Shown piece by piece: positions 1 to 18,074 of a stretch of 64,000 nucleotides of DNA (position 1 is its first letter; each line of letters opens with the position of its first letter). The notes beneath the pieces are model-generated. The model made no database searches and was not told the origin of the DNA. It saw only the letters and a list, made by a program, of their open reading frames with translations. Source of the DNA: Neorhizobium sp. SOG26. GTDB lineage: Bacteria > Pseudomonadota > Alphaproteobacteria > Rhizobiales > Rhizobiaceae. The position numbers and the translations under genes are program-made. The DNA is taken from the NCBI RefSeq assembly GCF_003491345.1, contig NZ_CP025513.1:1-64000 (forward strand), read 5' to 3'.

Positions 1-731
1 GCGCGAGGTCCGAAAAAGCGCTCTAGTGTTCTCTCCGACGGCGTCAGCCCAGCAAGGCTCGCCCGCGCAGCATTGATGCCGTTCTGCACGCCAAGGCCGA
101 CGAACAGGTAGTGGCCGCTAGCGCCTTCCATGCAGGTGTCGCGGAATGGAAAGAGTGCGACGGCTGCGGCATTGCCGATCGCAGACCCGATCAGTTCGGC
201 TCGTTCCGGGTCATCCAGAGCCCGACATAAGAGGTGGGCGGCGGCTACAGCGGCGCCGATACAGCCGAACGTCCCGGTGTCATGAAGAAGCGGCTGCATG
301 CCGCCGAGCGACGCGCCAATTCTCGCCGAAACCTCATAGCCCGCCATCACCGCATCCAGAAAGGAAGACGCTGGCGCTTGCGTCTCCTCGGCAATTGCGA
401 GCGCGGCCGGGAGGACATGGCTCATCGGGTGACCGCGGGCACGCCGGTGCCCGTCCTGCAGTTGCAGCACGGTCATTGCCATACCGTTGACCAAGCCGGC
501 AACAGCCGCGGGAGAACCATCAGGGAAACCGGCAGTCGAAGCGTTGCCGGCACCGCCAGCCGCCACCAGTGTTGCGCGGGCCCGCGCGACGGATGGATGT
601 GCCGCACCCGCCACCATGACCGCCACAGTATCCAGCAGGAAATCGCGATACGCGGTTCGGACATCGCGCGGAACCTGCCCGAAGCGGTTTCGTGCGGCGG
701 CAATTGCAAGGCGGCGGGCGGCGTCGTGCAT
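1..731 (-). CDS. MmgE/PrpD family protein, N-terminal part (cut by window edge)
   Basis: Open frame of 243 codons from an ATG at 731 that runs off the left edge. Members are usually about 450 aa, so roughly the C-terminal half is missing. Seen: the family's first-domain motifs, GHPMSHVLPAALA at residues 100-112 and HDTGTFGCIGAA at 150-161. Known: the family includes 2-methylcitrate dehydratase, cis-aconitate decarboxylase and other hydro-lyases or isomerases of branched tricarboxylic or dicarboxylic acids. The start lies 4 bp after the stop of the upstream racemase-fold gene, with a weak GAGAG ribosome site, so it is co-transcribed as the most distal visible gene of the catabolic operon. Exact reaction unknown; an isomerase or dehydratase acting on the operon's dicarboxylate is an inference. 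Confidence 0.85.
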   Translation of the reverse strand, partial: MHDAARRLAIAAARNRFGQVPRDVRTAYRDFLLDTVAVMVAGAAHPSVARARATLVAAGGAGNASTAGFPDGSPAAVAGLVNGMAMTVLQLQDGHRRARGHPMSHVLPAALAIAEETQAPASSFLDAVMAGYEVSARIGASLGGMQPLLHDTGTFGCIGAAVAAAHLLCRALDDPERAELIGSAIGNAAAVALFPFRDTCMEGASGHYLFVGLGVQNGINAARASLAGLTPSERTLERFFGPR

Positions 732-735
732 GCTC

Positions 736-1512
736 TCAGCCTTTGGCCGCGTTCTCGGCTGCAGCCCCAGCCTTCATCATCGCATGCAGCATGTCGAGCC
801 GCGGCTCGACCGGCGCCGGGTAAACGTCACGTCCGTGGCGAAGGCCGAGCGCCAGGAAGGTTTCCACCAGCTTGTAGGTAAGCGGGCCTGGATTGACGAC
901 AGGAACCGGCAGGTTCGCCGCCAGGTATTCACCCGCCTGGTGCATCGTGGTCGAGCCAAGGCAGATCACTTCCGCCCCATCTTCCTCGATGCAACGCATG
1001 GCGACTTCGCGCATGCGCGGGAATACCTTGTCTTCCTTGCCGCCGAGAAGGTTGGAGAAGTCCGGCGGCTGGTCAAAACTGCGCACCGAAGCGCATTGCC
1101 GGTCAAACCCATATTCGCGGATTGCCTTCCGGTAGCGCGGCAGGGCCGGCTCCCACTGTGCCAGGACCGAGAACTTGCCGCCGAGCGTCAGCGCGTAGAG
1201 CATGGACGCCTTGCCGGCGCCGATGACCGGGATGGGCAGAACCGAGCGCAGCATGACCATGCCGCTGTCCGACATGGTATCGATGCAGACGGCATCGAAA
1301 CCTTCGGCTTCAGCGTTGCAGCCCGCTTCGAAGATCGCCAGATCCATCAGCCCCCAGTCGTGCGGCGACATGAACGAGGTCGGGCCGCAGGTCACCGGAC
1401 GGTAAGTCAGCTCCCAATCGGCCGGCAACGGCACATAGCGAGACTGCGCCTCTCGGTTTCGGACGCCTTCGGCATCCAGGGCGAAAGGAACGATGACAAG
1501 GATTCGGGTCAT
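736..1512 (-). CDS. Asp/Glu/hydantoin racemase-fold protein (copy A)
   Basis: 258 aa, cytoplasmic, no signal peptide. N-terminal strand RILVIVPF, central FDAVCIDTMSDSG (72-84) and ICLGSTTMHQA (183-193) place it in the Asp/Glu/hydantoin racemase superfamily, which also contains maleate cis-trans isomerase and arylmalonate decarboxylase. By eye, the two positions that hold catalytic Cys in classical racemases are Thr79 and Ser187 here, so ordinary two-cysteine racemization is doubtful. It overlaps the adjacent paralogue by 4 bp (ATGA) and has a GGAGGG ribosome site 6 bp before the ATG. Inference: it acts on the operon's dicarboxylate or half-amide, for example as an isomerase; the two copies may form a heteromer. 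Confidence 0.8.
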   Translation of the reverse strand: MTRILVIVPFALDAEGVRNREAQSRYVPLPADWELTYRPVTCGPTSFMSPHDWGLMDLAIFEAGCNAEAEGFDAVCIDTMSDSGMVMLRSVLPIPVIGAGKASMLYALTLGGKFSVLAQWEPALPRYRKAIREYGFDRQCASVRSFDQPPDFSNLLGGKEDKVFPRMREVAMRCIEEDGAEVICLGSTTMHQAGEYLAANLPVPVVNPGPLTYKLVETFLALGLRHGRDVYPAPVEPRLDMLHAMMKAGAAAENAAKG

Positions 1513-2282
1513 TGGTTGCCCTCCAGATATGCAGCGCCGGCAGCGCCAATCGCGCGGATCATGTCATGCTTCGGCACCAGCGGTGTCGGCCAGGTCGCCT
1601 TGCTGTGGGTGAGCTTCAGGTCGAGAGCGATCGATGCCAGCTTGTAGGTCAGCGGACCCGGGTTGATGACCGGCACCCCGATACGTTCTGAAAGCCACGA
1701 ATGCGCTTCATGCATCGTGGTTGATCCGAGGATCAGGACCTGCGCGCCATCCTCCTTCACGCATTTCTGCGCCGCCTCCAGAAGCATTGGGAATACCTGG
1801 TCTTCCTTGCCAGAGAGGAGGCTCTTGTTGTCCGGCGTGACACCGATCGAGCGCATCGAGGCGCATTTGTGCTCCATTCCCAATTCGCCTAGCGTCTTGG
1901 TGTAGAGCATCTTCCATCGATCCCACATCATCAGGATCGAGAACTTGTCGCCGAGCATCTGTGCGATCAGCATCGAATGGCGACCGGGCGCGATGACGGG
2001 GATGGTCAACACGGAGCGCAGCATCGCCATGCCGCTGTCGGACATGGTATCGATGCAGACGGCATCGAAACCCTCTTTCTCCGCATCAAGACCAGCGTCG
2101 ACAATCGAGAAATCCGCGAGCACCATGTCGTGCTGGCTGGAATAGTTCTTCGGGCCGACCCGCACAGGGCGGTAATGGAATTCGATACCTGGGCCGAGAT
2201 CGACCGCCTTCATCTGCGCTTCGCGGCGGGAGAGATCCTCCTTGCCCATCGGAAACGGTACGATGACCATGACCTTCTTCAT
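1509..2282 (-). CDS. Asp/Glu/hydantoin racemase-fold protein (copy B)
   Basis: 257 aa, clearly a tandem paralogue of the next gene: both carry GFDAVCIDTMSDSG at residues 71-84, LGSTTMH near 185-191 and INPGPLTYKL near the C-terminus. As in copy A, Thr79 and Ser187 stand where cysteines are expected in racemases. A strong AGGAGG site lies 5 bp before the ATG. It ends inside the start of copy A (ATGA overlap), which implies translational coupling. Family members include hydantoin racemase, glutamate racemase and maleate isomerase. The conserved non-cysteine pattern suggests a shared, different chemistry, or structural partners in which neither copy is a conventional racemase. Function remains unassigned. 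Confidence 0.8.
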   Translation of the reverse strand: MKKVMVIVPFPMGKEDLSRREAQMKAVDLGPGIEFHYRPVRVGPKNYSSQHDMVLADFSIVDAGLDAEKEGFDAVCIDTMSDSGMAMLRSVLTIPVIAPGRHSMLIAQMLGDKFSILMMWDRWKMLYTKTLGELGMEHKCASMRSIGVTPDNKSLLSGKEDQVFPMLLEAAQKCVKEDGAQVLILGSTTMHEAHSWLSERIGVPVINPGPLTYKLASIALDLKLTHSKATWPTPLVPKHDMIRAIGAAGAAYLEGNQ

Positions 2283-2344
2283 CAGTTCCTCCTGTCGGTC
2301 TGGGTGCGCACCGCTATTCCCAGCGGGGGCGGTGCGTGATGTGG

Positions 2345-3745
2345 TCAGCCTTGGGCGGCTATTCGCGCGGCACTGATCCCGGCCAGTCGACCGAATGTCG
2401 TGGCAGCCAGGAGGCCGTTGCCCGAAAGGTATCCGTAGTTGGAGTCACCCGAGACACCACGGGCAGCGCCACCACCGGCCATCAGGTTTGGCAGCGGCAT
2501 TCCGTCATCCCGCAGCACACGCGCTTCGGCATCAACGACAAGGCCGCCCTGCGTATGGAACAGCGCGCCGTTCACCTTCACCGCGTAGAACGGTGGCTTG
2601 AGCAATTGTTCCTCAGAGAACTGACGGCCGAAGCGGTCCGGCTGGCGGCTGCGTGCAGCTGCCTCAATCGCGTCAAACTCAGCCTTCACCGCGTCGAAAG
2701 GCAGGCCAGTGACGGCTGCAAGCTCCTCCAGAGTGTTGGCTGTCTTGACCGCGCCAAGCTTGCGGATCTCGCGGTAGTCGTAAAAGCCCATGGCCGCTTC
2801 TTCGCCCGCAGCATCGAAAATATCCCACGCCACGTGGCCCGGCTGTGCCGCGACCTCCGAGCCATGCTCGGAATACCCGCGCATCTCGTTGGAAAACCGC
2901 CGGCCCTCGGTGTTCAGAAGGACGCCACCTTTGGTGATGACCGCCCAGGTCAATGGCAGCGAATGAGGATGCGCAACGGATCCATGGCCCTGGTAGGCAC
3001 CCATGTCCGCGACCGCGGCACCGAGTTCGAGACCCCATTTTACGGCATCGCCTGTGTTGGACAGGTGGCCGCAGCACTCCGCATCTGCAATTTCGGGAAT
3101 GTATTGGCGCACCATTTCGGCGTCGCCCGCAAAGCCGCTGCAGGCCAAAACCAGAGACTGGCAACCGAGCGTCTCCAGTGCCCCGTCCGGACGGCAGAAC
3201 CGGACACCAGTCACGCGGCCGGAGCCATCGACATAAAGGTCTTCTACCGAGGCGCCCGTCACGAGGTCGATGCCGGCATTGGACACCGCGGCAAGCAACG
3301 CCTGCTCGAGATCCGCACCAGTGCGGCTCTTCGGGCCGTGCATGCGAAGGCGGGAATGGCCGGGGTAGAGGAAGCCGGTAACGAGTTCGAACTCAATGTT
3401 GTGGGCGTCCATCAACCAGTCGATCATCGGGCCGGCATTGCGCGCCAGCACCAGAGCCTGGTCGTGCGGCGTGTGATCATGTGTCTTCGCCACCAGGTCT
3501 GCCGCGAAGAGTTCCGGGCTATCATCGATGCCCGCTTGCTTCTGCAGGCGTGTGCACGGCGCCGGGATCAGTCCGGCTGACAAGGAGGTGGAGCCGGTCG
3601 GGTTCTCGTCGCGCTCCAGTACGAGCACCTCTTGTCCTTCGTCATGCGCGGCAAGCGCGGCAACAAGCCCGCACGCCCCTGCCCCGATCACGACAACCGG
3701 TACCTCGAAATCAAACTCCACGCCGCTGGCGCTCAAGACTGCCAT
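2345..3745 (-). CDS. FAD-dependent oxidoreductase (fumarate reductase/succinate dehydrogenase flavoprotein-like)
   Basis: 466 aa, soluble. A Rossmann FAD-binding motif GAGACG lies at residues 21-26, with the ribose-binding Glu44 in LVLERD. The C-terminus has the flavin-closing motif YLSGNGLLAATTFGR typical of the FAD-binding-2 family (fumarate reductase, tricarballylate dehydrogenase, 3-ketosteroid dehydrogenase). No Tat or Sec signal, so it works in the cytoplasm. It lies in the catabolic operon between the C-C lyase and the racemase-fold pair. A reasonable inference is desaturation of a substituted succinate to a fumarate or maleate, or the reverse. Substrate not determined. Start chosen at the ATG at 3745, which follows a GGAGAGGG stretch. 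Confidence 0.82.
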   Translation of the reverse strand: MAVLSASGVEFDFEVPVVVIGAGACGLVAALAAHDEGQEVLVLERDENPTGSTSLSAGLIPAPCTRLQKQAGIDDSPELFAADLVAKTHDHTPHDQALVLARNAGPMIDWLMDAHNIEFELVTGFLYPGHSRLRMHGPKSRTGADLEQALLAAVSNAGIDLVTGASVEDLYVDGSGRVTGVRFCRPDGALETLGCQSLVLACSGFAGDAEMVRQYIPEIADAECCGHLSNTGDAVKWGLELGAAVADMGAYQGHGSVAHPHSLPLTWAVITKGGVLLNTEGRRFSNEMRGYSEHGSEVAAQPGHVAWDIFDAAGEEAAMGFYDYREIRKLGAVKTANTLEELAAVTGLPFDAVKAEFDAIEAAARSRQPDRFGRQFSEEQLLKPPFYAVKVNGALFHTQGGLVVDAEARVLRDDGMPLPNLMAGGGAARGVSGDSNYGYLSGNGLLAATTFGRLAGISAARIAAQG

Positions 3746-3773
3746 ATCCCTGACCCTCTCCTCTGACAGTGGC

Positions 3774-3793
3774 GGGCGCCGCTCCCGGCGCCC
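3774..3793 (-). repeat. Intercistronic hairpin
   Basis: Perfect inverted repeat with 8-bp arms (GGGCGCCG / CGGCGCCC) and a 4-nt loop, between the lyase and flavoprotein genes. There is no T-run after it on the minus strand, so it is more likely an RNA-processing or stability element than a terminator. Confidence 0.5.
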
Positions 3794-3803
3794 TGAACCT
3801 CGC

Positions 3804-4697
3804 TCAATAGCTCGTACGATTTTCCTCAGGCGTCCCGTAACGGGCTTCGAGCTCCTGGATCTCGGGCATCCGCGCCATGTCGAAGAACTCCTTGAAGCTC
3901 ATCACGTTTGGCGCGATCGACGCGATCGTCTCTTCGTTCTTCAGCACCTCCAGCGTGCGTCGCGCCGCTTCGCAGGCCGAGAGCAGCAGCCAGTTCGGAT
4001 AGATGATGAGCTTGAAGCCGAGCGCTTCGATTTCCGATCGCTTCAGGAACGGCGTCTTGCCCGACGTGGCCATGTTGTAGAGCAGCGGGATGCCTGGGAA
4101 GCGCGGCGCGATATGCGGGAGGTCATCGGGGCCGGGACTTTCGATGAAGACGACGTCAGCACCCGCTTCGCGGTACATCTCGGCGCGGTCGAAGGCAGCA
4201 TTGCGACCATGTAGCGCCAACGCATCGGTGCGGGCGATGACAACGAAATTCTCGTCAACGCGGGCGTCGACCGCGGCCTTGACCTTGGCAACCATGTCTT
4301 CTGTCGAGATGAGTTGCTTGCCGGCCAGGTGACCGCACCGCTTTGGCAGCACCTGGTCTTCCAGGTGAACTGCAGCGACACCGCCACGCTCATAGAGCTG
4401 GATGGCGCGACGGACGTTGAGCGGCCCGCCGAAGCCGTTGTCGGCGTCAGCGATTAGCGGCACATCGGAAGCATCGGCGATGCGGGTGGCGTTGTCGACC
4501 ATTTCCGTCATGGTCAGAAGACCAACGTCCGGATAACCGAGACGCGTGGCCGAGGTGCCGGCGCCGGTCATATACATAGCCTCGAAACCTGCCTCGGCAA
4601 CGAGACGCGCATACATGGCATCGACGACCCCTGGAGCCATGACGGCCCGTTCGCCTGCGAGCGCCTGCCGCAGACGTTGTGTCCGAGTAAGAGACAT
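3804..4697 (-). CDS. Isocitrate lyase/PEP mutase family C-C lyase (methylisocitrate or 2,3-dimethylmalate lyase-like)
   Basis: 297 aa, TIM-barrel enzyme of the isocitrate lyase/PEP mutase superfamily. The metal-binding acidic cluster ADAD is at 83-86, HLED at 111-114, and the flexible loop KRCGH is at 119-123. The loop cysteine (Cys121) marks the lyase branch (2-methylisocitrate lyase, 2,3-dimethylmalate lyase), unlike PEP mutase or oxaloacetate decarboxylase. Start set at the ATG at 4697 because GGAGAA lies just upstream; an in-frame codon 36 bp earlier lacks one. It is next to an ABC transporter and in the same operon as a LeuCD-type hydratase. Hydration followed by lyase cleavage would give pyruvate plus a short acid. 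Substrate not proven. Confidence 0.85.
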   Translation of the reverse strand: MSLTRTQRLRQALAGERAVMAPGVVDAMYARLVAEAGFEAMYMTGAGTSATRLGYPDVGLLTMTEMVDNATRIADASDVPLIADADNGFGGPLNVRRAIQLYERGGVAAVHLEDQVLPKRCGHLAGKQLISTEDMVAKVKAAVDARVDENFVVIARTDALALHGRNAAFDRAEMYREAGADVVFIESPGPDDLPHIAPRFPGIPLLYNMATSGKTPFLKRSEIEALGFKLIIYPNWLLLSACEAARRTLEVLKNEETIASIAPNVMSFKEFFDMARMPEIQELEARYGTPEENRTSY

Positions 4698-4759
4698 TGT
4701 CTTCTCCGTTTCTCCGTAAATTGGTCCGCCCACACCACATCCAGGCGCGGGCGGATCCG

Positions 4760-5461
4760 TTACATGCCTAGATAGGCTTGGCGTAGCTGGGGATCGGCAA
4801 GCAGACCTGCTGCGTCTCCCTGCATGACGAAACGACCCTGCTCGATCACGTAGGCGCGCTTTGCAACACCCAGTGACTGCATGACATTCTGCTCGACGAG
4901 GAGCACCGCAACGCCATCGGCGTTGATCTTGGTGATGAGCCCGAACATCTCCTCGACCATGATCGGCGAGAGACCAAGCGAGGGCTCATCAAGGATGAGG
5001 AGTTCCGGCTCCGACATCATCCCGCGGCCGATTGCGAGCATCTGCTGCTCACCGCCGGACAAGGTACCGGCAAGCTGACCAAGCCGCTCCCTCAGGCGTG
5101 GAAAGATCGCGCAGATGCGCTCGAAATTCTGCTTGGCATTGCTGCTGGCACGGCGAAAGGCGCCGAGCTTCAGGTTCTCCGCGACCGACAGGTTCGGGAA
5201 GATCTTGCGCCCTTCCGGCACATGGGCGATGCCGAGCGCGACGATGTCGCGGGGCTTCTTGCCCGTGATTGTGACGCCCTTGAAGGAGATCGATCCACCG
5301 CTCGGGCGAATGAAACCGGAGATGACGTTGTTGAGCGTCGTCTTGCCGACACCGTTCGAGCCGAGGAGCGCGACGATCTCGCTTGCCTCGACACGCATGT
5401 CGATGCCCTGCAACACCGACATCGAGCCATAGCCCGCGCGAATACCGGAAATCTCAAGCAT
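4760..5461 (-). CDS. livF: LIV-type ABC transporter ATP-binding protein (LivF-like)
   Basis: 233 aa ATPase. Walker A is GSNGVGKTT (34-42), the signature LSGGEQQ is intact, and a Walker B with LILDEPSLGL follows, as in the LivF branch. Start taken at the ATG at 5461, which has AGGAGG 6 bp upstream and overlaps the livG stop by 8 bp (ATGCTTGA); a longer upstream frame is antisense to nothing but lacks a ribosome site. Partner of LivG, LivH, LivM and the periplasmic binding protein encoded just upstream. The symbol marks the family only: the catabolic context suggests that the cargo is an amide, imide or organic acid, not leucine. Confidence 0.93.
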   Translation of the reverse strand: MLEISGIRAGYGSMSVLQGIDMRVEASEIVALLGSNGVGKTTLNNVISGFIRPSGGSISFKGVTITGKKPRDIVALGIAHVPEGRKIFPNLSVAENLKLGAFRRASSNAKQNFERICAIFPRLRERLGQLAGTLSGGEQQMLAIGRGMMSEPELLILDEPSLGLSPIMVEEMFGLITKINADGVAVLLVEQNVMQSLGVAKRAYVIEQGRFVMQGDAAGLLADPQLRQAYLGM

Positions 5462-6194
5462 GGCTTCCCTCCTGAAGACGGGCGGCGGCGCCATGCCCAA
5501 GATAGGCCTCCACGACGGAGGGATCCTTGACGAGCTCGCGTGGCGGTCCATGCGCGATCATCTTGCCCTGGTTCAGGACGTAAGCTGTTTCGGCAAGACT
5601 CATCACCGCCTGCATGACATGTTCGATCATCAGGAAAGTATGGCCCTCGTCACGGATCTGGCGAATGATGCCGACGATCTCGGTGATCTCCGACGGGATA
5701 AGGCCGGCCATGACCTCGTCCAGCAGCAGAAGCTTGGCGCCGGTGGCGAGAGCACGCGCGAGTTCAAGACGCTTGCGACCAGCGATCGTCAGCGACGAGG
5801 CCGGCCGATCAAGCATCGCGCCCATCCCCAGCCGCTTGCCGACTTCACGGGAGACCGACATCGCATCGCGGCGGTCGTGATGGTGGAGATACGCGCCTAC
5901 GGCGATGTTCTCTTGGACTGTAAGGCCGGCAAACGGTTGCACGATCTGAAACGTGCGGATCATGCCCAGTTCGCAGATCCGGTGCGGCGGCAGGCCGGTG
6001 ATGTCCTGGCCGCGGAAGCGGACCGTTCCGACGTCAGCCTTCGTAAAGCCGGCGATCATCGTGAAGCAGGTCGTCTTGCCGGCGCCGTTCGGACCCAGGA
6101 GCCCGACGATCGACCCTTCGGGAACATCAAGATTGGCATCCGTGACTGCCTTCAGACCCCCGAAGCTCTTGGAGAGATTACGGACCTCAAGCAT
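5454..6194 (-). CDS. livG: LIV-type ABC transporter ATP-binding protein (LivG-like)
   Basis: 246 aa ATPase with Walker A GPNGAGKTT near residues 34-42 and Walker B ending LLLLDEVMAGL. Odd point: the ABC signature reads LTIAGRKRLE where LivG normally has an LSGGQ/LSYGQ-type motif, so the glycine pair is changed. LivF keeps a normal signature, so the heterodimer would have one canonical and one altered ATP site. It overlaps the livM end by 8 bp with the same ATGCTTGA junction seen at the livG-livF boundary. Start is the ATG at 6194. Confidence 0.92.
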   Translation of the reverse strand: MLEVRNLSKSFGGLKAVTDANLDVPEGSIVGLLGPNGAGKTTCFTMIAGFTKADVGTVRFRGQDITGLPPHRICELGMIRTFQIVQPFAGLTVQENIAVGAYLHHHDRRDAMSVSREVGKRLGMGAMLDRPASSLTIAGRKRLELARALATGAKLLLLDEVMAGLIPSEITEIVGIIRQIRDEGHTFLMIEHVMQAVMSLAETAYVLNQGKMIAHGPPRELVKDPSVVEAYLGHGAAARLQEGSHA

Positions 6195-7164
6195 TGTCGT
6201 TCTCCTTCTTCTTGAAGGGGCCGACGCGGCCGGCCAGTCCGACCAAGCCCTGCGGCAGGAAGCGAAGCGCGCAGATCAACACGATCGCGTAGAGCACGAA
6301 GTTCAGGCCCGGCGCGTTCGGGAGAAGGTGCTTTGCGCCTTCGCCGAGGAGATGCAAGCCAAGCGTGCCGAGCAACGGACCCCAGACGGTGCCGGCGCCG
6401 CCGATGATCGGCCCGATCAGCGCCTCGACCGAGACTGCGCTGCCGTAAACAACGGTGCTGTCGATGAAGAGCCAGAGCTGCAGATAAAGGACACCGGCAA
6501 GACCGCCGAATGCGCCGGAGATCGCCATCGCCTGGACCTTGATCTTGTAGGTATCGATGCCGAGCGCACGCGCGGCGTCTTCGTTTTCGCGCACGGCGAT
6601 CAGGTAGGCGCCGAACCGGGAGAACTTGATCAGCGCGGTCAGCGCCATCACGGCAGCAACAACGATCAACAAGGCCGTATAAACGACGGTGCGGTCATTG
6701 ATCTGCAGGTTGCCGATGCCTGGCGCGAGCGTGAGCTGCAAGCCGCTGCCCCCGCCTGTGAACTCGAAGGACGAGGCGCAGATGCGAAGGACCTCGGCAA
6801 AGGCGAGCGTCACAAGAGCGAAATACGAACCGCGCAGGCCATAACGGAATGCAAGTGCACCGATGAAGGCGCCCATGGCAGCCCCGGCGAGAATGCCCGC
6901 GCCAAAGCCGATCCATGCGTTGAGGCCGAATTTGACCTGGAGGATTGCCGACGCATAGGCGCCGGTGCCGTACATGGCGGCATGACCGAAAGAGGAAAGG
7001 CCGCCGAAGCCACCGGTAATGTTCCACGAGAGCGCGATCACGGCCACGATGAGCGCGTTGATCGTGAAGCCCATCCAGACCGGCGAGGAGGCGAAGTATA
7101 CGCCGAGCAGGTAGGCGATGGCGGCAGCCACGAGGGCGATTTGGCCCACAGAATTAAGTCTCAT
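6187..7164 (-). CDS. livM: LIV-type ABC transporter permease (LivM-like)
   Basis: 325 aa, strongly hydrophobic with about eight to ten membrane segments. It contains the permease motif around GGFGGLSSFGHAA (residues 51-63) and the cytoplasmic EAA-like loop RENEDAARALGIDTYK that couples to the ATPases. Start ATG at 7164 overlaps the livH stop by one base (TAATG). Forms the inner-membrane channel with LivH for the substrate of this catabolic operon. Confidence 0.92.
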   Translation of the reverse strand: MRLNSVGQIALVAAAIAYLLGVYFASSPVWMGFTINALIVAVIALSWNITGGFGGLSSFGHAAMYGTGAYASAILQVKFGLNAWIGFGAGILAGAAMGAFIGALAFRYGLRGSYFALVTLAFAEVLRICASSFEFTGGGSGLQLTLAPGIGNLQINDRTVVYTALLIVVAAVMALTALIKFSRFGAYLIAVRENEDAARALGIDTYKIKVQAMAISGAFGGLAGVLYLQLWLFIDSTVVYGSAVSVEALIGPIIGGAGTVWGPLLGTLGLHLLGEGAKHLLPNAPGLNFVLYAIVLICALRFLPQGLVGLAGRVGPFKKKENDNA

Positions 7165-8030
7165 TAGCGCGCCCTCCCCAGAAGCCCGGACGGTTTGAAG
7201 AGAAGGATCAGGATGAAGGCGAGGAAGATACCGATCTGACCAAGGCTTTCGCCCAGGAACAGGCCGCAGAGGGATTCGATAACGCCGAGGAGCAGGCCCG
7301 CAATCAACGCTCCTACAAGGCTACCCATGCCGCCAAGCACGACCGTGGTGAACGCAACCAGCACGAAGGTGTAACCGACCTGTGGGGTGACGTAGAAAGT
7401 CGGCAGCAGCAGGCAGGCGGCGAGCGCGACACAGGCAGTGCCGATGCCAAAGCAGATTGCATAGGTATGGTTGACGTCGATGCCGACGAGTTCGGCGCCG
7501 CGCTTTTCAATCGCAACTGCCCGGATGGCGGAGCCGGTGCGGGTATAGGCCATGAACGCCCAGAGGAGCGGGGCGACCGCAAGTGCTGCGACAAAAGCAA
7601 TGACGCGTCCGAGCGGCAGGTAGGCGCCAAGGATCTCGACCGTATCATAGGCGTAGGCGATGTCGGCCGTGCGGGTGTTCGATGTCCAGAAATAAAGTGC
7701 CAGGTTATCGACAATCATCGATATGGCGAGCGTGATAAGAAGCACGTTCTGCTCCGACCCGCTGCTCATCGGCGCGATCAACCCACGCTGCAGGGCATAG
7801 CCGAGCGCGAAGAACACCGGCAGCACAATCGGGATCGCGAGATAGGGGTCAACGCCGAGATGGTAGTGCAGGAAGTACACTGCATAGAGCGCCAGCATCA
7901 GAAGGCTGCCATGCGCGAAATTGATGATGTGCAGTACGCCGTAGATGAGGGTGAGGCCAAGCGCCACAAGCGCATAGACCGCCCCCATCATGAGGCCGCT
8001 CAGCACGGCAGGTAAGATCAGACTCGACAT
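7164..8030 (-). CDS. livH: LIV-type ABC transporter permease (LivH-like)
   Basis: 288 aa hydrophobic permease of the LivH family. N-terminal GLMMGAVYALVALGLTLIYG followed by HIINFAHGS is the family hallmark (residues about 12-43). Roughly eight membrane helices and a coupling loop near the middle (EKRGAELVGID). Lies 68 bp after the binding-protein gene, from which it is separated by a strong hairpin; coupled to livM by a TAATG junction. Confidence 0.92.
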   Translation of the reverse strand: MSSLILPAVLSGLMMGAVYALVALGLTLIYGVLHIINFAHGSLLMLALYAVYFLHYHLGVDPYLAIPIVLPVFFALGYALQRGLIAPMSSGSEQNVLLITLAISMIVDNLALYFWTSNTRTADIAYAYDTVEILGAYLPLGRVIAFVAALAVAPLLWAFMAYTRTGSAIRAVAIEKRGAELVGIDVNHTYAICFGIGTACVALAACLLLPTFYVTPQVGYTFVLVAFTTVVLGGMGSLVGALIAGLLLGVIESLCGLFLGESLGQIGIFLAFILILLFKPSGLLGRAR

Positions 8031-8060: not shown

Positions 8061-8087
8061 CTCCCGGCAGGCAGAGCCTGCCGGGAG
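8061..8087 (-). terminator. Hairpin between binding-protein and permease genes (attenuator/stabilizer)
   Basis: Perfect 12-bp arms (CTCCCGGCAGGC / GCCTGCCGGGAG) with a 3-nt loop. On the minus strand it is followed by CTTTTC, a short T-run. Position directly after the solute-binding-protein gene fits a partial terminator or RNA-stabilizing stem that raises binding-protein output over the permeases. Confidence 0.6.
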
Positions 8088-8098: not shown

Positions 8099-9316
8099 TC
8101 AGTTCTTCGCCGGGATCGGGAAAACGGCTTCAGCGCTCGCATATTCCTTCGGGAACACGAGCTCGATCTTGTCGCCGCGGATCTGGGTGTTGACCGGCTG
8201 CGAGTTGACGTTGTCGCCGTTGACGAACTTGGTCGGGCCGTAAGGCATGATGGAGCCGTCGAAGGTCGAGGCAGCAAGCGCTTCGATCATCTTCTGGCGG
8301 TCGTCGGAGGCGGCACGTTCCAGTGCATCGGCGATGACCTGGATCGTCGCGTAGGACACCATGATATCGTAGGTGAGGTCGAGCTTGGCGTCGGCCACCT
8401 TGGCGGCAAGTGCCTTCGACTCTTCCTTGGTCGGATCGTACCAGTGATTGCAGTCCATGACGTATTGCGCCACTTCCTGGTTTTCACGGACGAACTTGAT
8501 GTTCGAAGCTGCACCGCCGAGGATCGAGTAGATCGCCTTCAGCTCAACGCGCTGCTGATTGAGCGCGCGCGCCATCAGCGTGTATTCGTTGAGGTAGTTC
8601 GACGGGATCAGGATGTCGGCCTTGGAAGCCTTCACGCGCAGCGCAATGTTGGAGAAGTCGCGCTGGGGCGTCGGGTGCGAGATGGTTTCAACGACCTCGA
8701 TGCCCTGCTTCGGCAGCTCTTCCTTCATGATCTTTGCCATGTTGGAGCCGAACGGACCGTCTTCGTGGACGATGGCAGCAGTCTTGACCGAGTTGCCGGA
8801 TCCCTCGTTGAGAAGCTTGAGGTTGGTGAGAGCGACGCTGGTGCACTTGTTGACGCCCGGCGTGAAGCGGAAGACGTTCGGTAAGCCGCGCTGAACGATC
8901 GTCTCAGCAGTACCGATCGAGAACACCTGAGCAAGGTTGTGCTTGGCCGCGGCCTGCGAGGAGGCAAGACCAAGTGCGGACGCGGTGGCGCCCGTGAAGG
9001 CGCAGGCGCCAGCCTGGACCAGCGTATCGACGGCGGAAGCAGCGGCTTCCGGGCGGCTCTGCGCGTCGACCACGACCAATTCGATCTTGGCGCCGCCCAT
9101 GCTCTTGATGCCGCCAGCAGCATTGATGGCGTCGGCGGCAAACTTGGCACCGGCCGCGCTCTGCGTGCCGTTGTAGGCCAGGTTGCCAGTCAGCGGCTCG
9201 ATGACACCGACCTTAACGGTCGCTGCCTGTGCGCGGAGGATGGATGGTGCTGCCAGAGTGGCGGCGATGGCGCCGGACGCCTTCAACAGGTCGCGGCGAT
9301 CAATTTTGAATGTCAT
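8099..9316 (-). CDS. Periplasmic branched-chain-type substrate-binding protein, Tat signal
   Basis: 405 aa LivJ/LivK-type binding protein (Peripla_BP_6 fold). The N-terminus has a twin-arginine pattern, RRDLLKASG (7-15), then a hydrophobic stretch and a likely cleavage near AQA-AT, so export of a folded protein is predicted. The mature part starts VKVGVIEPLTGNLAYNG, the usual ligand-site beginning. It lies between leuD-like and livH genes. The ligand is unknown; these proteins bind amino acids, amides, aromatic acids and dicarboxylates. It is the best protein in the operon for a direct ligand test. Confidence 0.92.
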   Translation of the reverse strand: MTFKIDRRDLLKASGAIAATLAAPSILRAQAATVKVGVIEPLTGNLAYNGTQSAAGAKFAADAINAAGGIKSMGGAKIELVVVDAQSRPEAAASAVDTLVQAGACAFTGATASALGLASSQAAAKHNLAQVFSIGTAETIVQRGLPNVFRFTPGVNKCTSVALTNLKLLNEGSGNSVKTAAIVHEDGPFGSNMAKIMKEELPKQGIEVVETISHPTPQRDFSNIALRVKASKADILIPSNYLNEYTLMARALNQQRVELKAIYSILGGAASNIKFVRENQEVAQYVMDCNHWYDPTKEESKALAAKVADAKLDLTYDIMVSYATIQVIADALERAASDDRQKMIEALAASTFDGSIMPYGPTKFVNGDNVNSQPVNTQIRGDKIELVFPKEYASAEAVFPIPAKN

Positions 9317-9373
9317 CTCAGTTGCTCCCAGTTCTTATTTACGACGGCGAAGTGATACCCGCTGATCCGCCCG

Positions 9374-9988
9374 TCACCGGTCCAGCCAGGAATGAGAAGC
9401 GATCCGGTCCGTTTCGAAGGCCTTGATCTGCTCCATGTAAGTGAAAGTCATCTCGATCTCGTCGAGCCCCTGCAGGATGCACTCCCGCGCAAAGGCGTCG
9501 ATGACGATCGGGTGGGTGCCGAGGTTGCCCGGCAGCGTCACCTTCGACGCCGTCAGGTCAACGGTGACTTCTGCATCGGGGAAACGGGCGAGATGGTCAG
9601 CCAGCGCCTCACAGTCCTCGACGGGCAGCCGGACCGGCACGACACCGTTTTTCAGCGCGTTGTTATAGAAAATGTCGCCGAAGCTTGGACCAATGACGGC
9701 GCGGACGCCATGATCGACCAAGGCATAGACAGCACCCTCGCGCGAGGAACCGCAACCGAAATTGTCTTCGACCAGCAGGATGGTGGCGTTTTCGGCACCC
9801 GGCTGGTTCAGCGGGAAGGACGGGTCAAGCTCGCCCTGCTCGTTGCGACGGATGTCATGGAACAGGAACTGGCCGTAGCCCTGCGCCCGGTCGGCCTTGA
9901 GGAAGCGGCCCGGGATGATCTGGTCGGTGTCGCAGTTGACGCCGGGGATGGCGACGACTTTTGATGTTTCTCGCGTGAAAGCTCTCAT
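9374..9988 (-). CDS. leuD: Isopropylmalate dehydratase-family small subunit (catabolic LeuD paralogue)
   Basis: 204 aa, the swivelling small subunit of an aconitase-family hydro-lyase. The hallmark ENFGCGSSRE appears as EDNFGCGSSRE near residues 73-83, and FGDIFYNNALKNG follows. The GAGGG ribosome site overlaps the large-subunit stop, 9 bp upstream. Known relatives: 3-isopropylmalate isomerase, citramalate/citraconate hydratase and dimethylmaleate hydratase (DmdB). Because it sits in an ABC-linked catabolic operon with a C-C lyase and no other leucine gene, a catabolic hydratase role is preferred over leucine synthesis. The symbol denotes the family. Confidence 0.88.
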   Translation of the reverse strand: MRAFTRETSKVVAIPGVNCDTDQIIPGRFLKADRAQGYGQFLFHDIRRNEQGELDPSFPLNQPGAENATILLVEDNFGCGSSREGAVYALVDHGVRAVIGPSFGDIFYNNALKNGVVPVRLPVEDCEALADHLARFPDAEVTVDLTASKVTLPGNLGTHPIVIDAFARECILQGLDEIEMTFTYMEQIKAFETDRIASHSWLDR

Positions 9989-9997
9989 CGTCGGCCC

Positions 9998-11404
9998 TCA
10001 GATCCGTCTGACATCGGTGAGACAGCCGCTAATGGCGGCCGCAGCGGCCATGGCGGGGCTAACGAGATGCGTACGTGCACCGGGTCCCTGGCGGCCGACA
10101 AAGTTGCGGTTCGAGGTGGATGCACAACGTTCGCCAGGCCCCACGACGTCGCCGTTAATGGCGGCACACATGGAGCAGCCCGATTCACGCCACTCGAAAC
10201 CTGCCTCCTGGAAGGCTTGAGCGATGCCCTCGGCCTCAGCCTGTGCCTTCACCTGCGTGGAGCCAGGCACGACGATCGCGGGGATCACGGCCTTGCGGCC
10301 TTTCAGAACTGAGGCTGCGGCGCGAAGATCTTCGATGCGGCTGTTGGTGCACGAGCCTATGAAGACCTTGTCGAGCTTCAGGCCATCGAGGGCGACCCCT
10401 GGCGTCAGCTCCATATATTCAAGCGACTTGGTGACGGCCTTGCGCTTCTCCGAGCTTTCGAAGGCGGAAGGATCCGGCACGCGCCCGGTAATCGCTACAG
10501 CATCCTCGGGGCTGGTCCCCCAGGTTACCATGGGGGCAATCTCTGAACCGTTTAGCGTGACTTCCCTGTCGAATACCGCTTCATCATCGGTGACGAGTTG
10601 CCGCCAATGCGCAACCGCACGATCCCATTCCTGCTCCGACGGAGCGAATTTGCGACCTCGAACATAGGCAAAGGTAGTCTCGTCCGGCGCCACCATGCCG
10701 AACCGCGCAGCGGCTTCGATCGACATGTTGCACAGCGTCAGCCGCCCTTCGATCGACATGTCGCGCACGACCTGGCCAGCGAACTCGATCGCATGGCCGC
10801 CAGCGCCAGCCGCGCCGATCTTGGCGATCAGCGCCAGCATCACGTCCTTGGCAGTCACGCCCTGTCCGAGAACGCCGTCGATGGTGACGCGCATCGTCTT
10901 CGGCCGCGACTGCCATATAGTCTGGGTAGCAAGCACGTGGGCATTTTCCGACTGCCCGATACCGAAGGCGATAGCGCCGAGCGCGCCTTGCGTGGAGGTA
11001 TGGCTGTCGGAACAGACGATCATAAGGCCCGGCAGCGTGATCCCCTGCTCCGGCGCCATGACATGCACGATGCCCTGCTCGCGGCTGGAGATGCTGAAAT
11101 GGCGCACGCCACCCCATTCCATATTCTCGTCGAACGTATCGATCATCCGGGCAATCGCCGGCGTGGCCGCATCGTTCGATTTGCGGCCGATCGTCGGGAC
11201 GTAGTGGTCAGCAACACCGAAGATCTGCTTCGGGCGACGCGGCTTCAGGCCACGGCGCTTCAGATCGGCAAACGCATGAAAACTGCCCTCGTGGATCATG
11301 TCCCGATCGATATAAAGGAGCGAGGGACCGGACGGATGGCGCAAGATCTCGTGCTCGTCCCAGATCTTGCCCAGCATTGTGCGCGGTGCAGTTGCTTGCG
11401 CCAT
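9998..11404 (-). CDS. leuC: Isopropylmalate dehydratase-family large subunit (catabolic LeuC paralogue)
   Basis: 468 aa, normal LeuC length. [4Fe-4S] cluster ligands are visible: GSCTNSRIEDLRAAA in the C-terminal half and the GCSMC pair nearer the end, followed by GERCASTSNRNFVGRQG. The early VCSDSHTSTQGALGA motif is also present. Would form a heterodimer or heterotetramer with the adjacent small subunit and add or remove water at a C=C of a branched dicarboxylate. Candidate substrates, by family knowledge, are isopropylmalate, citraconate and dimethylmaleate. Context favours a hydratase feeding the KRCGH lyase encoded downstream. Confidence 0.9.
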   Translation of the reverse strand: MAQATAPRTMLGKIWDEHEILRHPSGPSLLYIDRDMIHEGSFHAFADLKRRGLKPRRPKQIFGVADHYVPTIGRKSNDAATPAIARMIDTFDENMEWGGVRHFSISSREQGIVHVMAPEQGITLPGLMIVCSDSHTSTQGALGAIAFGIGQSENAHVLATQTIWQSRPKTMRVTIDGVLGQGVTAKDVMLALIAKIGAAGAGGHAIEFAGQVVRDMSIEGRLTLCNMSIEAAARFGMVAPDETTFAYVRGRKFAPSEQEWDRAVAHWRQLVTDDEAVFDREVTLNGSEIAPMVTWGTSPEDAVAITGRVPDPSAFESSEKRKAVTKSLEYMELTPGVALDGLKLDKVFIGSCTNSRIEDLRAAASVLKGRKAVIPAIVVPGSTQVKAQAEAEGIAQAFQEAGFEWRESGCSMCAAINGDVVGPGERCASTSNRNFVGRQGPGARTHLVSPAMAAAAAISGCLTDVRRI

Positions 11405-11477
11405 GGCGATGACTTCCTATTGCTTCCTTGCGCCTTTCGGCGGCCAGCGCCCCAAAAGGACGCCGGCGTGGCGAGCC

Positions 11478-12401
11478 TCAGCCCGCAGAGCGGAATGCCG
11501 CGCAGATTTCGCCTGCCGGCGCGTTCCAGACGCCCTCGTGCGACAGGATGTAGTCGAGCGCCTCGCGCAGATATTCGACGCGATAGGGCATGCCCGAGAC
11601 CCAGCTGTGCAGCGGCAGGCTCATGACGCGACCGCCGTATTCGGCGCTCTCACGGTAAAGCACGTCGAAACGATCTTTGACCTGCTGGACCCAGTCCGCT
11701 TCCGACTGGAAATACTCGTCGGCGACGACGCGATCATCCGTCTCGTAGGCCATCGGCATCGCCACGATCGGACCTACCTTCGTACGCATCTCGTACGGCA
11801 GGTCATCGTTTGCCCAGTCCAGGCTGTAGGTGACGCCATTCTTTGCCAGCAGGTCCGGTGTGTTGAAGCCCTGGGCGCGGCCCGGAGAAAGCCACCCTTC
11901 CACCTTCTGGCCGCTCGTTTCACGCAGCAGGCGCAGCGCCTCGGCGATGATGCGATTTTCCTCGTCTTCCGAGAGACCGGAATGGTGCACCTTGCCCATG
12001 TCGAGACCATGCGCGACGATCTCGTGCCCGCCCTCAACGACCGCCTGCACCAGCGCCGGATAACGGTCGGCGATGATGCCGTTGATCGCGAAGCTCGTCT
12101 TCAACTGCTTTTCGGCAAGAAGCCGAAGAACACGGTAAATGCCAACGCGATTGCCGTAGTCGCGATTGGTGTAATAGCGGAAGTCTGGATAGGGCATCGA
12201 CAAGGCGCCAGGGGCCTTGAAGGGCTTGGATGGCATGTCGAGCGGGAAATGCTGGACATGCGTCACGATCGACAGCGCGATCCGTGCGCCGTTCGACCAT
12301 GCGATCGGCTTGCGCTTGAACAGGTCGGACCACTCGTAGCGGTCGTGATCCATGCCGTAACGGCGTGCGGGATATTCAAGGTAGTTATCGGGCATCGACA
12401 T
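11478..12401 (-). CDS. Polysaccharide-deacetylase-fold hydrolase, PuuE/cyclic imidase-like (copy 2)
   Basis: 307 aa, no signal peptide, so a cytoplasmic small-molecule hydrolase and not a cell-wall deacetylase. Early TNRDYGNRVGIYR (near 78-90) and GGHEIVAHGLDMGKVHH (near 123-139) match the PuuE-type allantoinase / cyclic imide hydrolase branch of the NodB-fold family. GWLSPGRAQGFNTPDLLA resembles the corresponding region of its neighbour. The gene starts at the stop of copy 1 (TGATG). Known relatives hydrolyse cyclic amides (allantoin, cyclic imides) to half-amides. Specific substrate is inferred only. Confidence 0.8.
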   Translation of the reverse strand: MSMPDNYLEYPARRYGMDHDRYEWSDLFKRKPIAWSNGARIALSIVTHVQHFPLDMPSKPFKAPGALSMPYPDFRYYTNRDYGNRVGIYRVLRLLAEKQLKTSFAINGIIADRYPALVQAVVEGGHEIVAHGLDMGKVHHSGLSEDEENRIIAEALRLLRETSGQKVEGWLSPGRAQGFNTPDLLAKNGVTYSLDWANDDLPYEMRTKVGPIVAMPMAYETDDRVVADEYFQSEADWVQQVKDRFDVLYRESAEYGGRVMSLPLHSWVSGMPYRVEYLREALDYILSHEGVWNAPAGEICAAFRSAG

Positions 12402-13360
12402 CAGCGGATCCCCTTCTCGGTAGCATTGGCGGCATTGTGCGCTGACATGGCAGCATTCATGGCGTCGTAGGCGCCGCTGGCATGATAGGCTTCGGCAATC
12501 TCACGTCCCGTTGTTTGCCACACCCCGTCATGGCTCGCGATGTACTCGATAGCCTCGGCAAAGGCATCGATGCGGTGCGGCTGCCCCACGAGGTACGGGT
12601 GGAGCGGGATGCACATCACCGTGCCGCTTTCGTCGCCTTCCTTGTAGAGCTGGTCGAACTGCCGCTTGATGATCTCGCCGTAGTGGCGGGGCGTCACCTT
12701 CTGCGTATTGTAGACGATGACGTCGTTCATCTCGAGCGAATACGGCATCGAGATGAGCTTGCCGGACTTCACCTTGACCGGCATCGGCTGGTCGTCATGG
12801 AACATGTCGCAGGTGTACTGGATGCCCGCTTCCGCCAGGATATCCATGGTCCAGAAGTTGTTGGACAACGCGGGTGAAAGCCAGCCCGCCAGTTCCTGGC
12901 CGGTATGCTTGCGCACAGTCTCGAACGCATCGCGGATGATGGCGCGTTCCTGCTCGATGTCGAGGTTATAGACATAACGCGTGTTGTAGATGCCGTGCGA
13001 GAAGAACTCCCAGCCCCGATCAGCGCATGCCTTGATGATTTCCGGGTGGTGGTCACAAAGCGCGACGTTGAGCGATACGGAACCGCGGAAGCCGGCGCGG
13101 TCCATGGCCGCCATCATGCGTTGCCAGCCGGCACGGTTGCCGTAATCGCGGTGGGAATACTGCAGCACGTCCGGGTTCGGACGTGCCCAGGGCGTGCGCG
13201 TCGGGTTGTTCGGGGGATCGTATTCGTAGAACTCGATGTTCGGCGCGATCCAGACGGCGATCTTCTTGTTGCCGGGCCAGACGATCTTGGGGCGGTTCGG
13301 CCAGGGCAGGTAGTCGTAGAGCCCCAGATCCGAACGCATTGGGTTCGCTTCGGCAGCCAT
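12401..13360 (-). CDS. Polysaccharide-deacetylase-fold hydrolase, PuuE/cyclic imidase-like (copy 1)
   Basis: 319 aa from an ATG at 13360, chosen because GGAGG lies about 10 bp upstream; longer in-frame starts overlap the previous gene and lack a site. Shares with copy 2 the SHRDYGNRAGWQR and EFFSHGIYNTR motifs and GWLSPALSNNFWT, so they are tandem paralogues of the PuuE-like branch. It starts 2 bp after the isochorismatase-fold gene stop and ends in the start of copy 2 (TGATG), so a coupled trio of hydrolases opens the operon. Either a heteromeric imidase or two enzymes with different ring substrates. Confidence 0.82.
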   Translation of the reverse strand: MAAEANPMRSDLGLYDYLPWPNRPKIVWPGNKKIAVWIAPNIEFYEYDPPNNPTRTPWARPNPDVLQYSHRDYGNRAGWQRMMAAMDRAGFRGSVSLNVALCDHHPEIIKACADRGWEFFSHGIYNTRYVYNLDIEQERAIIRDAFETVRKHTGQELAGWLSPALSNNFWTMDILAEAGIQYTCDMFHDDQPMPVKVKSGKLISMPYSLEMNDVIVYNTQKVTPRHYGEIIKRQFDQLYKEGDESGTVMCIPLHPYLVGQPHRIDAFAEAIEYIASHDGVWQTTGREIAEAYHASGAYDAMNAAMSAHNAANATEKGIR

Positions 13361-13361
13361 C

Positions 13362-14039
13362 TCAGCGGGCCTCCGGCTGGTAGGCCTCGTACCAGGCAAT
13401 CGCATCGGCAACCGGGATCACGTCGCCGTACTTGACGGAGATGTCATAGAGGTTGGCGAAGTGCGGGCTCTCATGCTTGTCCGCCACGCATTCTTCCGGA
13501 ACGATGACGCGGTAACCACGCGAAATTGCATCCACGACGCAGGCGCGTACGCAGCCCGACGTCGAGCCGCCGGTGAGTACTACCGTGTCGCATTGATGCC
13601 AGACCATCAGCGACTGCAGGTTCGTTTCGTGGAATGGCGACGCCATTCGCTTGTTGATGATGATGTCTTTGACGCGGTCGATATCAAGCCGCGGATCGAA
13701 CTCGGCGCGGCGCGACCCAACCTTGATGTTCTGCAGCGAATCCGGCGTGTCAGTGCGGGTGCCCCAAACGCCGCAGTCTTCGCCCGACTCCATGTAGGCC
13801 ACATAGGTCCAGGTGATCGGTAGACCCTTCGCACGGGCAAGCCCGGCCAGCGTATTTACGTAATCCAGCTGTTTGGGATCGGTCTCGTAGGACGTCGCGA
13901 ATTCACCGACGCGGGTGTAGGCGCACTGCAGATCGATATTGATCAGCATCGGCTTGCGGCCAAAACCGAACCGCTTGCGGGTCGGGTTCGCCTTGGCTTG
14001 CTCGTAGAGCTGGCGCGCGGTGAGCGATGACATTTCCAT
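13362..14039 (-). CDS. Isochorismatase-fold cysteine amidohydrolase (N-carbamoylsarcosine amidase/maleamate amidase-like)
   Basis: 225 aa. The cysteine-hydrolase triad is visible as Asp36 (NIDLQ), Lys130 (INKRMASPF) and Cys163 (TSGCVRACVVDA). The sequence around Cys163 and the N-terminal FGFGRKP resemble N-carbamoylsarcosine amidohydrolase; maleamate amidase NicF is in the same fold family. It would convert a half-amide to a dicarboxylate plus ammonia, or remove a carbamoyl group. AGGAGG lies 6 bp before the ATG. It is the first gene of the 14-kb minus-strand operon and is followed at once by the two imidase-like genes, which supports a ring-opening then deamidation order. Confidence 0.88.
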   Translation of the reverse strand: MEMSSLTARQLYEQAKANPTRKRFGFGRKPMLINIDLQCAYTRVGEFATSYETDPKQLDYVNTLAGLARAKGLPITWTYVAYMESGEDCGVWGTRTDTPDSLQNIKVGSRRAEFDPRLDIDRVKDIIINKRMASPFHETNLQSLMVWHQCDTVVLTGGSTSGCVRACVVDAISRGYRVIVPEECVADKHESPHFANLYDISVKYGDVIPVADAIAWYEAYQPEAR

Positions 14040-18064: not shown

Positions 18065-18074
18065 GGCTCACCTA

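Follow-up and report, generated by a model that had tools for sequence, protein, structure and literature searches.

A candidate operon for cyclic-imide degradation on contig NZ_CP025513.1 of Neorhizobium sp. SOG26

Background

Which compound is taken up and degraded by the products of the minus-strand operon at the beginning of contig NZ_CP025513.1 (C3) of Neorhizobium sp. SOG26? The first 64 kb of this record (positions 1 to 64,000, here termed the window; genome size 4.56 Mb) open with a run of 15 genes (Table 1) encoding (i) an isochorismatase-family amidase (Iso) and two paralogous proteins of PuuE fold (PuuE1, PuuE2), together referred to as the trio, (ii) a LeuCD-type hydratase, (iii) a LIV-type transporter, (iv) a lyase of the isocitrate lyase (ICL) family, (v) a flavoprotein (FAD2), (vi) two proteins of Asp/Glu/hydantoin-racemase fold (AGR1, AGR2), and (vii) an MmgE/PrpD-family protein. 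Judged from sequence comparison and gene neighbourhood, the operon probably serves import and degradation of a small cyclic imide, with maleimides or succinimides bearing alkyl groups as the most likely candidates. An earlier note on this DNA had proposed a route from imide via half-amide, dicarboxylate and hydroxy acid to a pyruvate-type product and a short acid. As a class of chemistry this route is sustained by recurrence of the gene set, by two LeuCD lineages beside the trio and by replacement of the trio with HyuAB, while the assignments of three enzymes had to be corrected.

Results and discussion

Replacement of the trio by HyuAB

The strongest evidence in the case is an in-place cassette swap, first met when flavoprotein and lyase were used as queries against plasmids. 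In other Alphaproteobacteria, ATP-dependent HyuB-HyuA and a different isochorismatase-family hydrolase replace the trio, with the accessory genes being shared. GntR, LIV, lyase, flavoprotein and LeuCD genes accompany HyuAB in Azospirillum oryzae and A. ramasamyi (the Azospirillum HyuA reaching 515 bits against a CapA cut-off of 1000), and in Neorhizobium petrolearium they are joined by the AGR pair and MmgE. The version of Roseomonas haemaphysalidis comprises LIV, lyase, flavoprotein and MmgE genes, with no GntR or LeuCD in the stretch, and two Sulfitobacter versions contain GntR, LeuCD, lyase, flavoprotein and tautomerase genes, TRAP replacing the LIV genes. Tistrella possesses GntR, LIV, lyase, tautomerase, flavoproteins, AGR pair and MmgE, with neither opener nor LeuCD in view.

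A flavoprotein search of 385 genomes of the class yielded matches of E 1e-100 or better in 41 of them (the window's own included). The places outside the window numbered 55, of which 40 were fetched from 34 genomes and 15 left out. HyuA and HyuB were found in 12 of the fetched loci, the PuuE trio in 2, and both openers in none. In all 12 HyuAB loci the lyase is found together with the second amidase; LeuC is present in 11. The gene order is LivF-LeuC-LeuD-ICL-[Iso-PuuE1-PuuE2]-FAD2 in loci L059 and L150, and LivF-LeuC-LeuD-ICL-[HyuB-HyuA-IsoH]-FAD2 in L156, L167, L168 and L203-L205. Flanking proteins of the two versions are 52-74 % identical, compared to 60-78 % between L059 and L150, and 57-64 % between L167 and L203 (HyuA counted) within the same version.

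After the swap had been seen, the prediction that close HyuA relatives share these partners was tested on HyuA matches found across 41 genomes from the family, other than those that had first shown the swap. At 61-65 % identity, all four HyuA loci contained LeuC, ICL, FAD2 and the second amidase, versus none with any of these among 16 more distant ones (37-48 %; hand-picked from the matches below 61 % identity).

The HyuAB version of Sulfitobacter S190 (L142, 757-7826) is neighboured by genes for a 6-hydroxynicotinate-reductase-like protein, xanthine-dehydrogenase-type proteins, a UPF0280 protein and two "amino acid synthesis family" proteins. The 6-hydroxynicotinate-reductase-like gene could hint at a ring derived from pyridine or nicotinate, but none was found in the other five annotated HyuAB stretches.

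Conservation of the gene set

A search of genomes for the same gene set, suggested in the earlier note, retrieved it repeatedly. Scanning a genome collection with nine PuuE1 sequences yielded at least 550 relatives, the best 80 of which were used as loci; 15 of these are close relatives (PuuE1 at least 85 %), and many of the fetched stretches are short. Amidase, PuuE1 and PuuE2 genes are adjacent on one strand in 75 of the 80 loci; among the five exceptions, L076 and L108 miss the amidase-distance test only, while L084, L098 and L115 contain no PuuE2. Within the fetched stretches, LeuC is present in 36 loci, ICL in 37, both in 31 and the flavoprotein in 24, at least one of LeuC, ICL and FAD2 being encoded near the trio in 43; LIV binding protein plus permease were detected in 33 loci, AGR in 19 and MmgE in 14. 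Among the 32 distant loci with more than 8 kb on each side, the counts are LeuC 15, ICL 17, both 13, and any of LeuC, ICL and FAD2 19. From amidase through flavoprotein, all 12 genes follow the same order as in the window in Rhizobium, Agrobacterium, Paracoccus and Microvirga brassicacearum loci. Gene order and strand vary between lineages, so that the association does not represent one inherited block. LeuC beside the trio belongs to two subfamilies: the long type, as in the window, in 28 of the 80 loci and a short HacA/DmdB-type in 8.

Controls were 20 PuuE places with 27-35 % identity to PuuE1, hand-picked from the lower part of the match list. None of them had LeuC, ICL or FAD2 within about 9 kb, nor AGR, MmgE, the LIV set or either amidase over the same distance. 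Since 18 of the 20 are from the window's genus and 19 of the proteins pass the allantoinase cut-off with 516-547 bits (one scores 342.8), these places may amount to near-duplicates of a single inherited locus and thus form a narrow control; PuuE matches of intermediate identity (about 33-54 %, e.g., G013, G076 and G043) were left out.

In Sphingomonas JE1 and Acidiphilium (L034, L035), CaiB and HMG-CoA-lyase genes adjoin the trio. They suggest, as a lead only, an alternative CoA-dependent ending of citramalyl-CoA type, since HMG-CoA lyase was found in just 1 of the 80 loci (L053) and 2 of 8 plasmid loci. Some marine loci also contain genes that by eye resemble GlnB/GlnA; these were taken as incidental.

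Amidase, ring opener and racemase-fold proteins

Iso scores 89.5 bits with PF00857 and carries an Asp-Lys-Cys triad, which together place it in the isochorismatase family. The triad residues named in the earlier note (D36, K130 and C163) are among the positions conserved to at least 97 % in 85 sequences. With N-carbamoylsarcosine amidohydrolase (26st) and hydrolase 4l07 as closest solved structures, Iso is predicted to be a half-amide amidohydrolase.

PuuE1 and PuuE2 (32-33 % identity) had both been regarded as imidase-like hydrolases. Both indeed possess the polysaccharide-deacetylase fold (PF01522: 28.7 and 40.5 bits, threshold 23.1), and profile matches of PuuE1 include the PuuE allantoinases 3cl6 and 1z7a; the PuuE allantoinase cut-off (TIGR03212, 424.6 bits) is reached by neither PuuE1 (127.0) nor PuuE2 (126.6). 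However, only PuuE1 keeps the five putative active-site residues N58, E60, H139, N143 and H271, which are invariant in 82 of 82 sequences; in an alignment of three sequences, a PuuE-like protein encoded on contig C1 matches N58, E60 and the two histidines. Across 81 PuuE2 sequences, the position of H48 is occupied by His in 18 and Ala in 39, that of Q50 by Glu in 48 and Gln in 33, that of H131 by His in 44 and Asn in 29, that of M135 by Met in 79 and that of H265 by His in 68. Invariance of the active site in PuuE1 and its variability in PuuE2 point to PuuE1 as the likely catalyst and to PuuE2 as a partner with a relaxed site. By motif reading, the complete Asp-His-His metal site of polysaccharide deacetylases is absent from both, PuuE1 having N58/E60, H139 and N143 and PuuE2 being variable. 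HpPgdA has two zinc-binding histidines. Asp12, Asp14 and His247 of HpPgdA are named in a report that describes this protein as closest to PuuE allantoinase (PMC3084791).

AGR1, with allantoin racemase 5lfd as closest match (52.5 bits), and AGR2 are 52 % identical and share the motifs CIDTMSDSG and LGSTTM. The racemase fold ascribed to them is correct, but the catalytic cysteine pair of hydantoin and Asp/Glu racemases has given way to Thr and Ser in both window proteins. The same two residues occur in 21 of the 24 rows overall; three marine AGR2 relatives (L109, L117, L103) retain the second cysteine (LGCTCM). AGR1 and AGR2 are thus not classical racemases; together with MmgE, which recurs as they do, they may handle isomers.

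The same relatives would also fit a hydantoin or ureide route, in which a substituted hydantoin or a relative of allantoin is opened to a carbamoyl compound, Iso acts as carbamoylase and AGR1/AGR2 represent relatives of hydantoin racemases. The top solved relative of the amidase, the proximity of AGR1 to allantoin and hydantoin racemases and of PuuE1 to PuuE allantoinase, and HyuAB as alternative opener all agree with it. Such a route is nonetheless improbable, since its product would be an amino acid, yet a Pfam scan of the 15 genes revealed no ammonia lyase and no aminotransferase; what the operon does encode is a hydratase and a hydroxy-acid lyase. Moreover, both catalytic cysteines of the racemase fold are replaced, and the 127 bits of PuuE1/PuuE2 contrast with an allantoinase cut-off passed by nearly all control PuuE proteins, none of which has the partners.

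Hydratase and lyase

LeuC and LeuD exceed the cut-offs for 3-isopropylmalate dehydratase (TIGR00170, 639.0 versus 560.25 bits; TIGR00171, 172.5 versus 116.25 bits), and the operon LeuC has cysteines at 352, 410 and 413. A second LeuC is encoded on contig C1, so that a role of the operon LeuCD in leucine synthesis is not implied. The two LeuC proteins are 53 % identical, which is less than the 65-71 % shared by the operon LeuC with its counterparts in operons of Alcaligenaceae and Microvirga brassicacearum (L053-L056).

The best solved relative of the lyase is 2,3-dimethylmalate lyase (3fa3, 209 bits, versus 195 for 2-methylisocitrate lyase). Its K-[KR]-C-G-H loop is intact, reading KRCGH in the window, with Lys and Cys present in all 41 rows and Arg in 39. 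An ICL-family enzyme with catalytic Cys121, as claimed earlier, is borne out: the residue is C121 when counted from an ATG located 12 codons into the frame, and C133 in the GTG-started frame. The highest NCBIfam score, 275.2 bits with prpB (TIGR02317), stays under the cut-off of 354.4 and does not make the lyase a PrpB. In the motif YPNWLLL, the window lyase has Leu at a position occupied by Arg in PrpB and in 18 of the 41 rows, and by Gly in 3fa3; we take the Arg of PrpB-type lyases to bind the extra carboxylate, a role not found in the literature searched.

A tricarboxylate route, in which an imide with a carboxylated side chain yields a homologue of 2-methylisocitrate that hydratase and lyase convert to pyruvate and a dicarboxylate, could draw on the prpB score, on the presence of an MmgE/PrpD protein and on the PrpB-type Arg of other lyase rows. 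Given the Leu of the window lyase and the Gly of 3fa3 at that very position, with the carboxylate-binding role presumed above, it appears quite improbable for the window operon.

Flavoprotein and MmgE

The designation of FAD2 as fumarate-reductase-like holds for its fold (191.8 bits with solved 1d4c; 257.2 bits with flavocytochrome c/fumarate reductase TIGR01813, cut-off 285.45), but not for its substrate-binding residues. A Tyr found in 28 of 28 rows stands where fumarate reductase has its catalytic Arg, and the second, carboxylate-binding Arg is replaced in the window and absent from every row with letters there. With both replaced, FAD2 probably acts on a compound devoid of the two succinate carboxylates, which may be the ring itself.

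MmgE is assigned at family level only. Its 243-aa part in the window scores 24.2 bits with PrpD NF042438 (cut-off 950 bits, full protein 468 aa).

Proposed pathway

For the preferred imide route, the following sequence of reactions may be put forward. The LIV transporter would import the ring, and the flavoprotein would desaturate or reduce it in its neutral form. PuuE1, probably with its degenerate partner PuuE2, would hydrolyze the imide to the half-amide, as suggested by its family and its replacement by HyuAB. The isochorismatase-type amidase would then remove ammonia, yielding an alkyl-maleate-type dicarboxylate, to which the LeuCD-type hydratase would add water to form an alkylmalate. 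Finally, the ICL-family lyase, a predicted 2-alkylmalate lyase, would cleave the latter to pyruvate (or another 2-oxo acid) and a short carboxylate.

An imide is favoured because an amidase stands beside the ring opener in both versions, and opening of a lactam leaves no amide; opening of a hydantoin would produce a carbamoyl amino acid that is not directly usable by the downstream enzymes, so that an imide fits both versions. The family of the hydratase and the proximity of the lyase to 2,3-dimethylmalate lyase suggest an alkyl-maleate, and hence an alkyl-maleimide, or an alkyl-succinimide if the flavoprotein acts first.

Several observations weigh against this reading. Of the 32 distant trio loci with long flanks, 13 contain none of LeuC, ICL and FAD2, and in freshwater Comamonadaceae most of the visible stretches around the trio show neither LeuCD nor ICL. 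Either the trio takes part in further routes as well, or the remaining genes lie elsewhere. The Comamonadaceae variant (L083, L090, L076, L096 and similar loci) contains further PuuE-fold genes, a second isochorismatase, AGR, PhyH, SnoaL and a divergent MmgE, with a tautomerase-like open reading frame behind PuuE2 in several loci. PuuE2 as an obligate partner is called into question by its absence beside PuuE1 in the three loci named above, all from metagenome-assembled genomes of Bacteroidota. Neither opener was detected in 26 of the 40 flavoprotein loci; among these, L181 contains HyuA and the second amidase on a contig ending within HyuA, while L146 harbours LeuCD, lyase, GntR and tautomerase genes and no opener in its 20 kb. 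HyuAB occurs together with the trio in only one of the 80 PuuE loci (L074), and a Salipiger plasmid locus (L033) has both openers without LeuCD or ICL. The split of the lyases between Arg in 18 of 41 rows and Leu in the window implies that substrates may differ between clusters, and no substrate-specific marker was found.

That independent catabolic genes are merely held in one operon by co-transfer, for which patchy distribution and the location on plasmids or secondary replicons could be cited, is very improbable in view of the set's reappearance, rearranged in order and strand, in distant lineages, the two LeuCD subfamilies, the in-place swap between conserved flanks and the control loci devoid of partners.

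Relation to known systems

In nicotinate fermentation by Eubacterium barkeri, dimethylmaleate hydratase is followed by 2,3-dimethylmalate lyase. As in the proposed imide route, an aconitase-family hydratase thus precedes an ICL-family lyase to give pyruvate and a short acid, but neither an imide nor an amidase is known to be involved, and the window LeuCD is of the long LeuC type rather than the short HacA/DmdB type of other loci. In the creatinine route, N-methylhydantoinase is followed by N-carbamoylsarcosine amidohydrolase; this combination of HyuAB-type opener and isochorismatase-family hydrolase resembles the swapped version, while the route ends in sarcosine, with no hydratase or lyase known to take part.

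Cyclic-imide metabolism of Blastobacter sp. A17p-4 follows the same logic from imide via half-amide to dicarboxylate, with a half-amidase as second enzyme. Maleimide hydrolase is known as EC 3.5.2.16 (PMC1940265). The Blastobacter imidase is called dihydropyrimidinase-like in a title cited in PMC9863593, whereas the opener of the window has a polysaccharide-deacetylase fold, is paired and belongs to an operon that includes LeuCD and lyase genes of its own. HxnM of Aspergillus nidulans and a relative in Pseudomonas putida indicate that a PuuE-type fold can open imides (PMC9304392). In HxnM/HxnN and the P. putida homologue AAY98498, an imidase related to HpPgdA/PuuE is followed by an amidase, as in the window (PMC9304392); HxnM/HxnN belong to a nicotinate route ending in hydroxyglutarate. 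HyuAB-type enzymes act on cyclic amides (PMC8453981); the HyuAB/caprolactamase CapAB family fills the ring-opening slot in the sister operons and is absent from the window operon. In the literature searched, i.e., among the matches listed and mostly without subscription papers, no description of the gene set was found.

Genomic context

Table 1. Features of the operon and its divergent neighbour (positions in the window)
Feature	Position	Strand	Support
Iso, isochorismatase-family amidase	13362..14039	-	PF00857 3.6e-25
PuuE1, predicted cyclic-imide hydrolase, polysaccharide-deacetylase/PuuE fold	12401..13411	-	PF01522
PuuE2, PuuE1 paralogue, predicted partner subunit	11478..12401	-	PF01522 40.5 bits
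LeuC-type large subunit, aconitase-family hydratase	9998..11404	-	PF00330 8e-156; PRK12466 708.9 bits
LeuD-type small subunit	9374..9988	-	PF00694; PRK01641 225.4 bits
LIV-type periplasmic binding protein	8099..9316	-	PF13458 1.2e-51
Hairpin with T-rich tail, possible partial terminator	8061..8087	-	12-bp G+C-rich stem
LivH permease	7164..8030	-	PF02653
LivM permease	6187..7164	-	PF02653
LivG ATPase	5454..6194	-	PF00005 + PF12399
LivF ATPase	4760..5551	-	PF00005
ICL/PEP-mutase-family lyase (KRCGH), predicted 2-alkylmalate lyase	3804..4733	-	PF13714
FAD2, flavoprotein, fumarate-reductase/ketosteroid-dehydrogenase fold	2345..3745	-	PF00890
AGR1, Asp/Glu/hydantoin-racemase-fold protein	1509..2282	-	PF01177
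AGR2, AGR1 paralogue	736..1512	-	PF01177
MmgE/PrpD-family protein, cut by record start	1..731	-	PF03972 4.9e-37
Carboxymuconolactone-decarboxylase/AhpD-family gene, divergent, possible member	14251..14790	+	PF02627 3.9e-08

The 15 genes extend from 14039 down to the window start, and Pfam and NCBIfam assignments agree with the earlier note on the place of every gene it named. Its description as an uninterrupted minus-strand run applies to strand, place and gaps (at most 73 bp), with the nuance that a hairpin sits directly behind the binding-protein gene, before the permease genes. Terminator-like sites in 1-15000 number 12, versus 10.0 expected in shuffles, and this hairpin has the longest stem of them; the pattern is as if the permease genes were expressed at a lower level. 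From the LivF/LivG overlap, the true LivF start is probably an internal ATG near 5461.

The MmgE gene resumes at C3:1171501-1172176 (468 aa in total) and thus reads across the record ends, which indicates that C3 (1,172,176 bp) is circular and that position 1 is an arbitrary record start. Beyond it follow a convergent GntR-UTRA gene (C3:1170724-1171494; domains read on the Rhizobium rhizoryzae counterpart) and a 3-hydroxyacyl-CoA-dehydrogenase-family gene, an arrangement matching that of R. rhizoryzae. The closest named relative found for the region is plasmid NZ_CP049249 of R. rhizoryzae DSM 29514 (now Affinirhizobium rhizoryzae in the taxonomy), with 94.9 % identity for PuuE1, 63 % for the 468-aa MmgE and 80.4 % nucleotide identity over 3804-14164. 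Close PuuE1 proteins (at least 90 %) occur in only 5 of 56 same-genus genomes besides that of the window, reflecting patchy spread.

Molybdenum hydroxylase genes beside the operon in R. rhizoryzae, L038, L043, L045 and L050 were considered as a missing first step and rejected: the large subunit of L038, the only one scanned, is a PaoC aldehyde oxidoreductase (1366 bits, cut-off 1180), and the genome of the window has only 39 % relatives, located elsewhere.

The divergent AhpD-family gene lies between the operon and an efflux cluster on the minus strand (14804-18648) encoding an HlyD-type adaptor, an MFS-type pump and two MarR regulators. Divergent homologues, 74-83 % identical over 173-178 aa, neighbour the trio in 5 of 88 loci (L030, L038, L041, L045, L051); the gene is in two pieces and apparently broken in L044, and L039 has a weak match. 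A chemotaxis cluster (CheR) follows at about 18735-23484, with relatives on Shinella and Rhizobium plasmids.

Significance

2-Ethyl-3-methylmaleimide is reported from Spirulina in a source which also cites the compound for Vallisneria extract fractions (PMC9227131); such compounds thus exist in aquatic habitats. The example given in the earlier note, a methyl- or dimethylmaleimide released from tetrapyrroles, is one possible substrate of the operon. One may speculate, as a doubtful extension of the imide route, that the operon family represents a widespread and so far undescribed recycling of alkyl-maleimides from chlorophyll, bilins and haem in soil, plant-associated, freshwater and marine bacteria. 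PuuE1/PuuE2 and HyuAB would then be interchangeable openers of the same ring; Arg-less lyases would serve neutral rings (2-ethyl-3-methylmaleimide to pyruvate and butyrate), and Arg-bearing lyases carboxylated ones (haematinic acid to pyruvate and glutarate).

If the assignment to a cyclic imide is true, the operon would provide a genetic route from such a ring to central metabolism in several bacterial lineages. Its genes are labelled inconsistently in the annotated plasmid records examined, for instance as "polysaccharide deacetylase", "isopropylmalate dehydratase" or "racemase". The exchange of two ring-opening families would then reveal the step they perform and offer a genomic handle on the degradation of natural and man-made imides.

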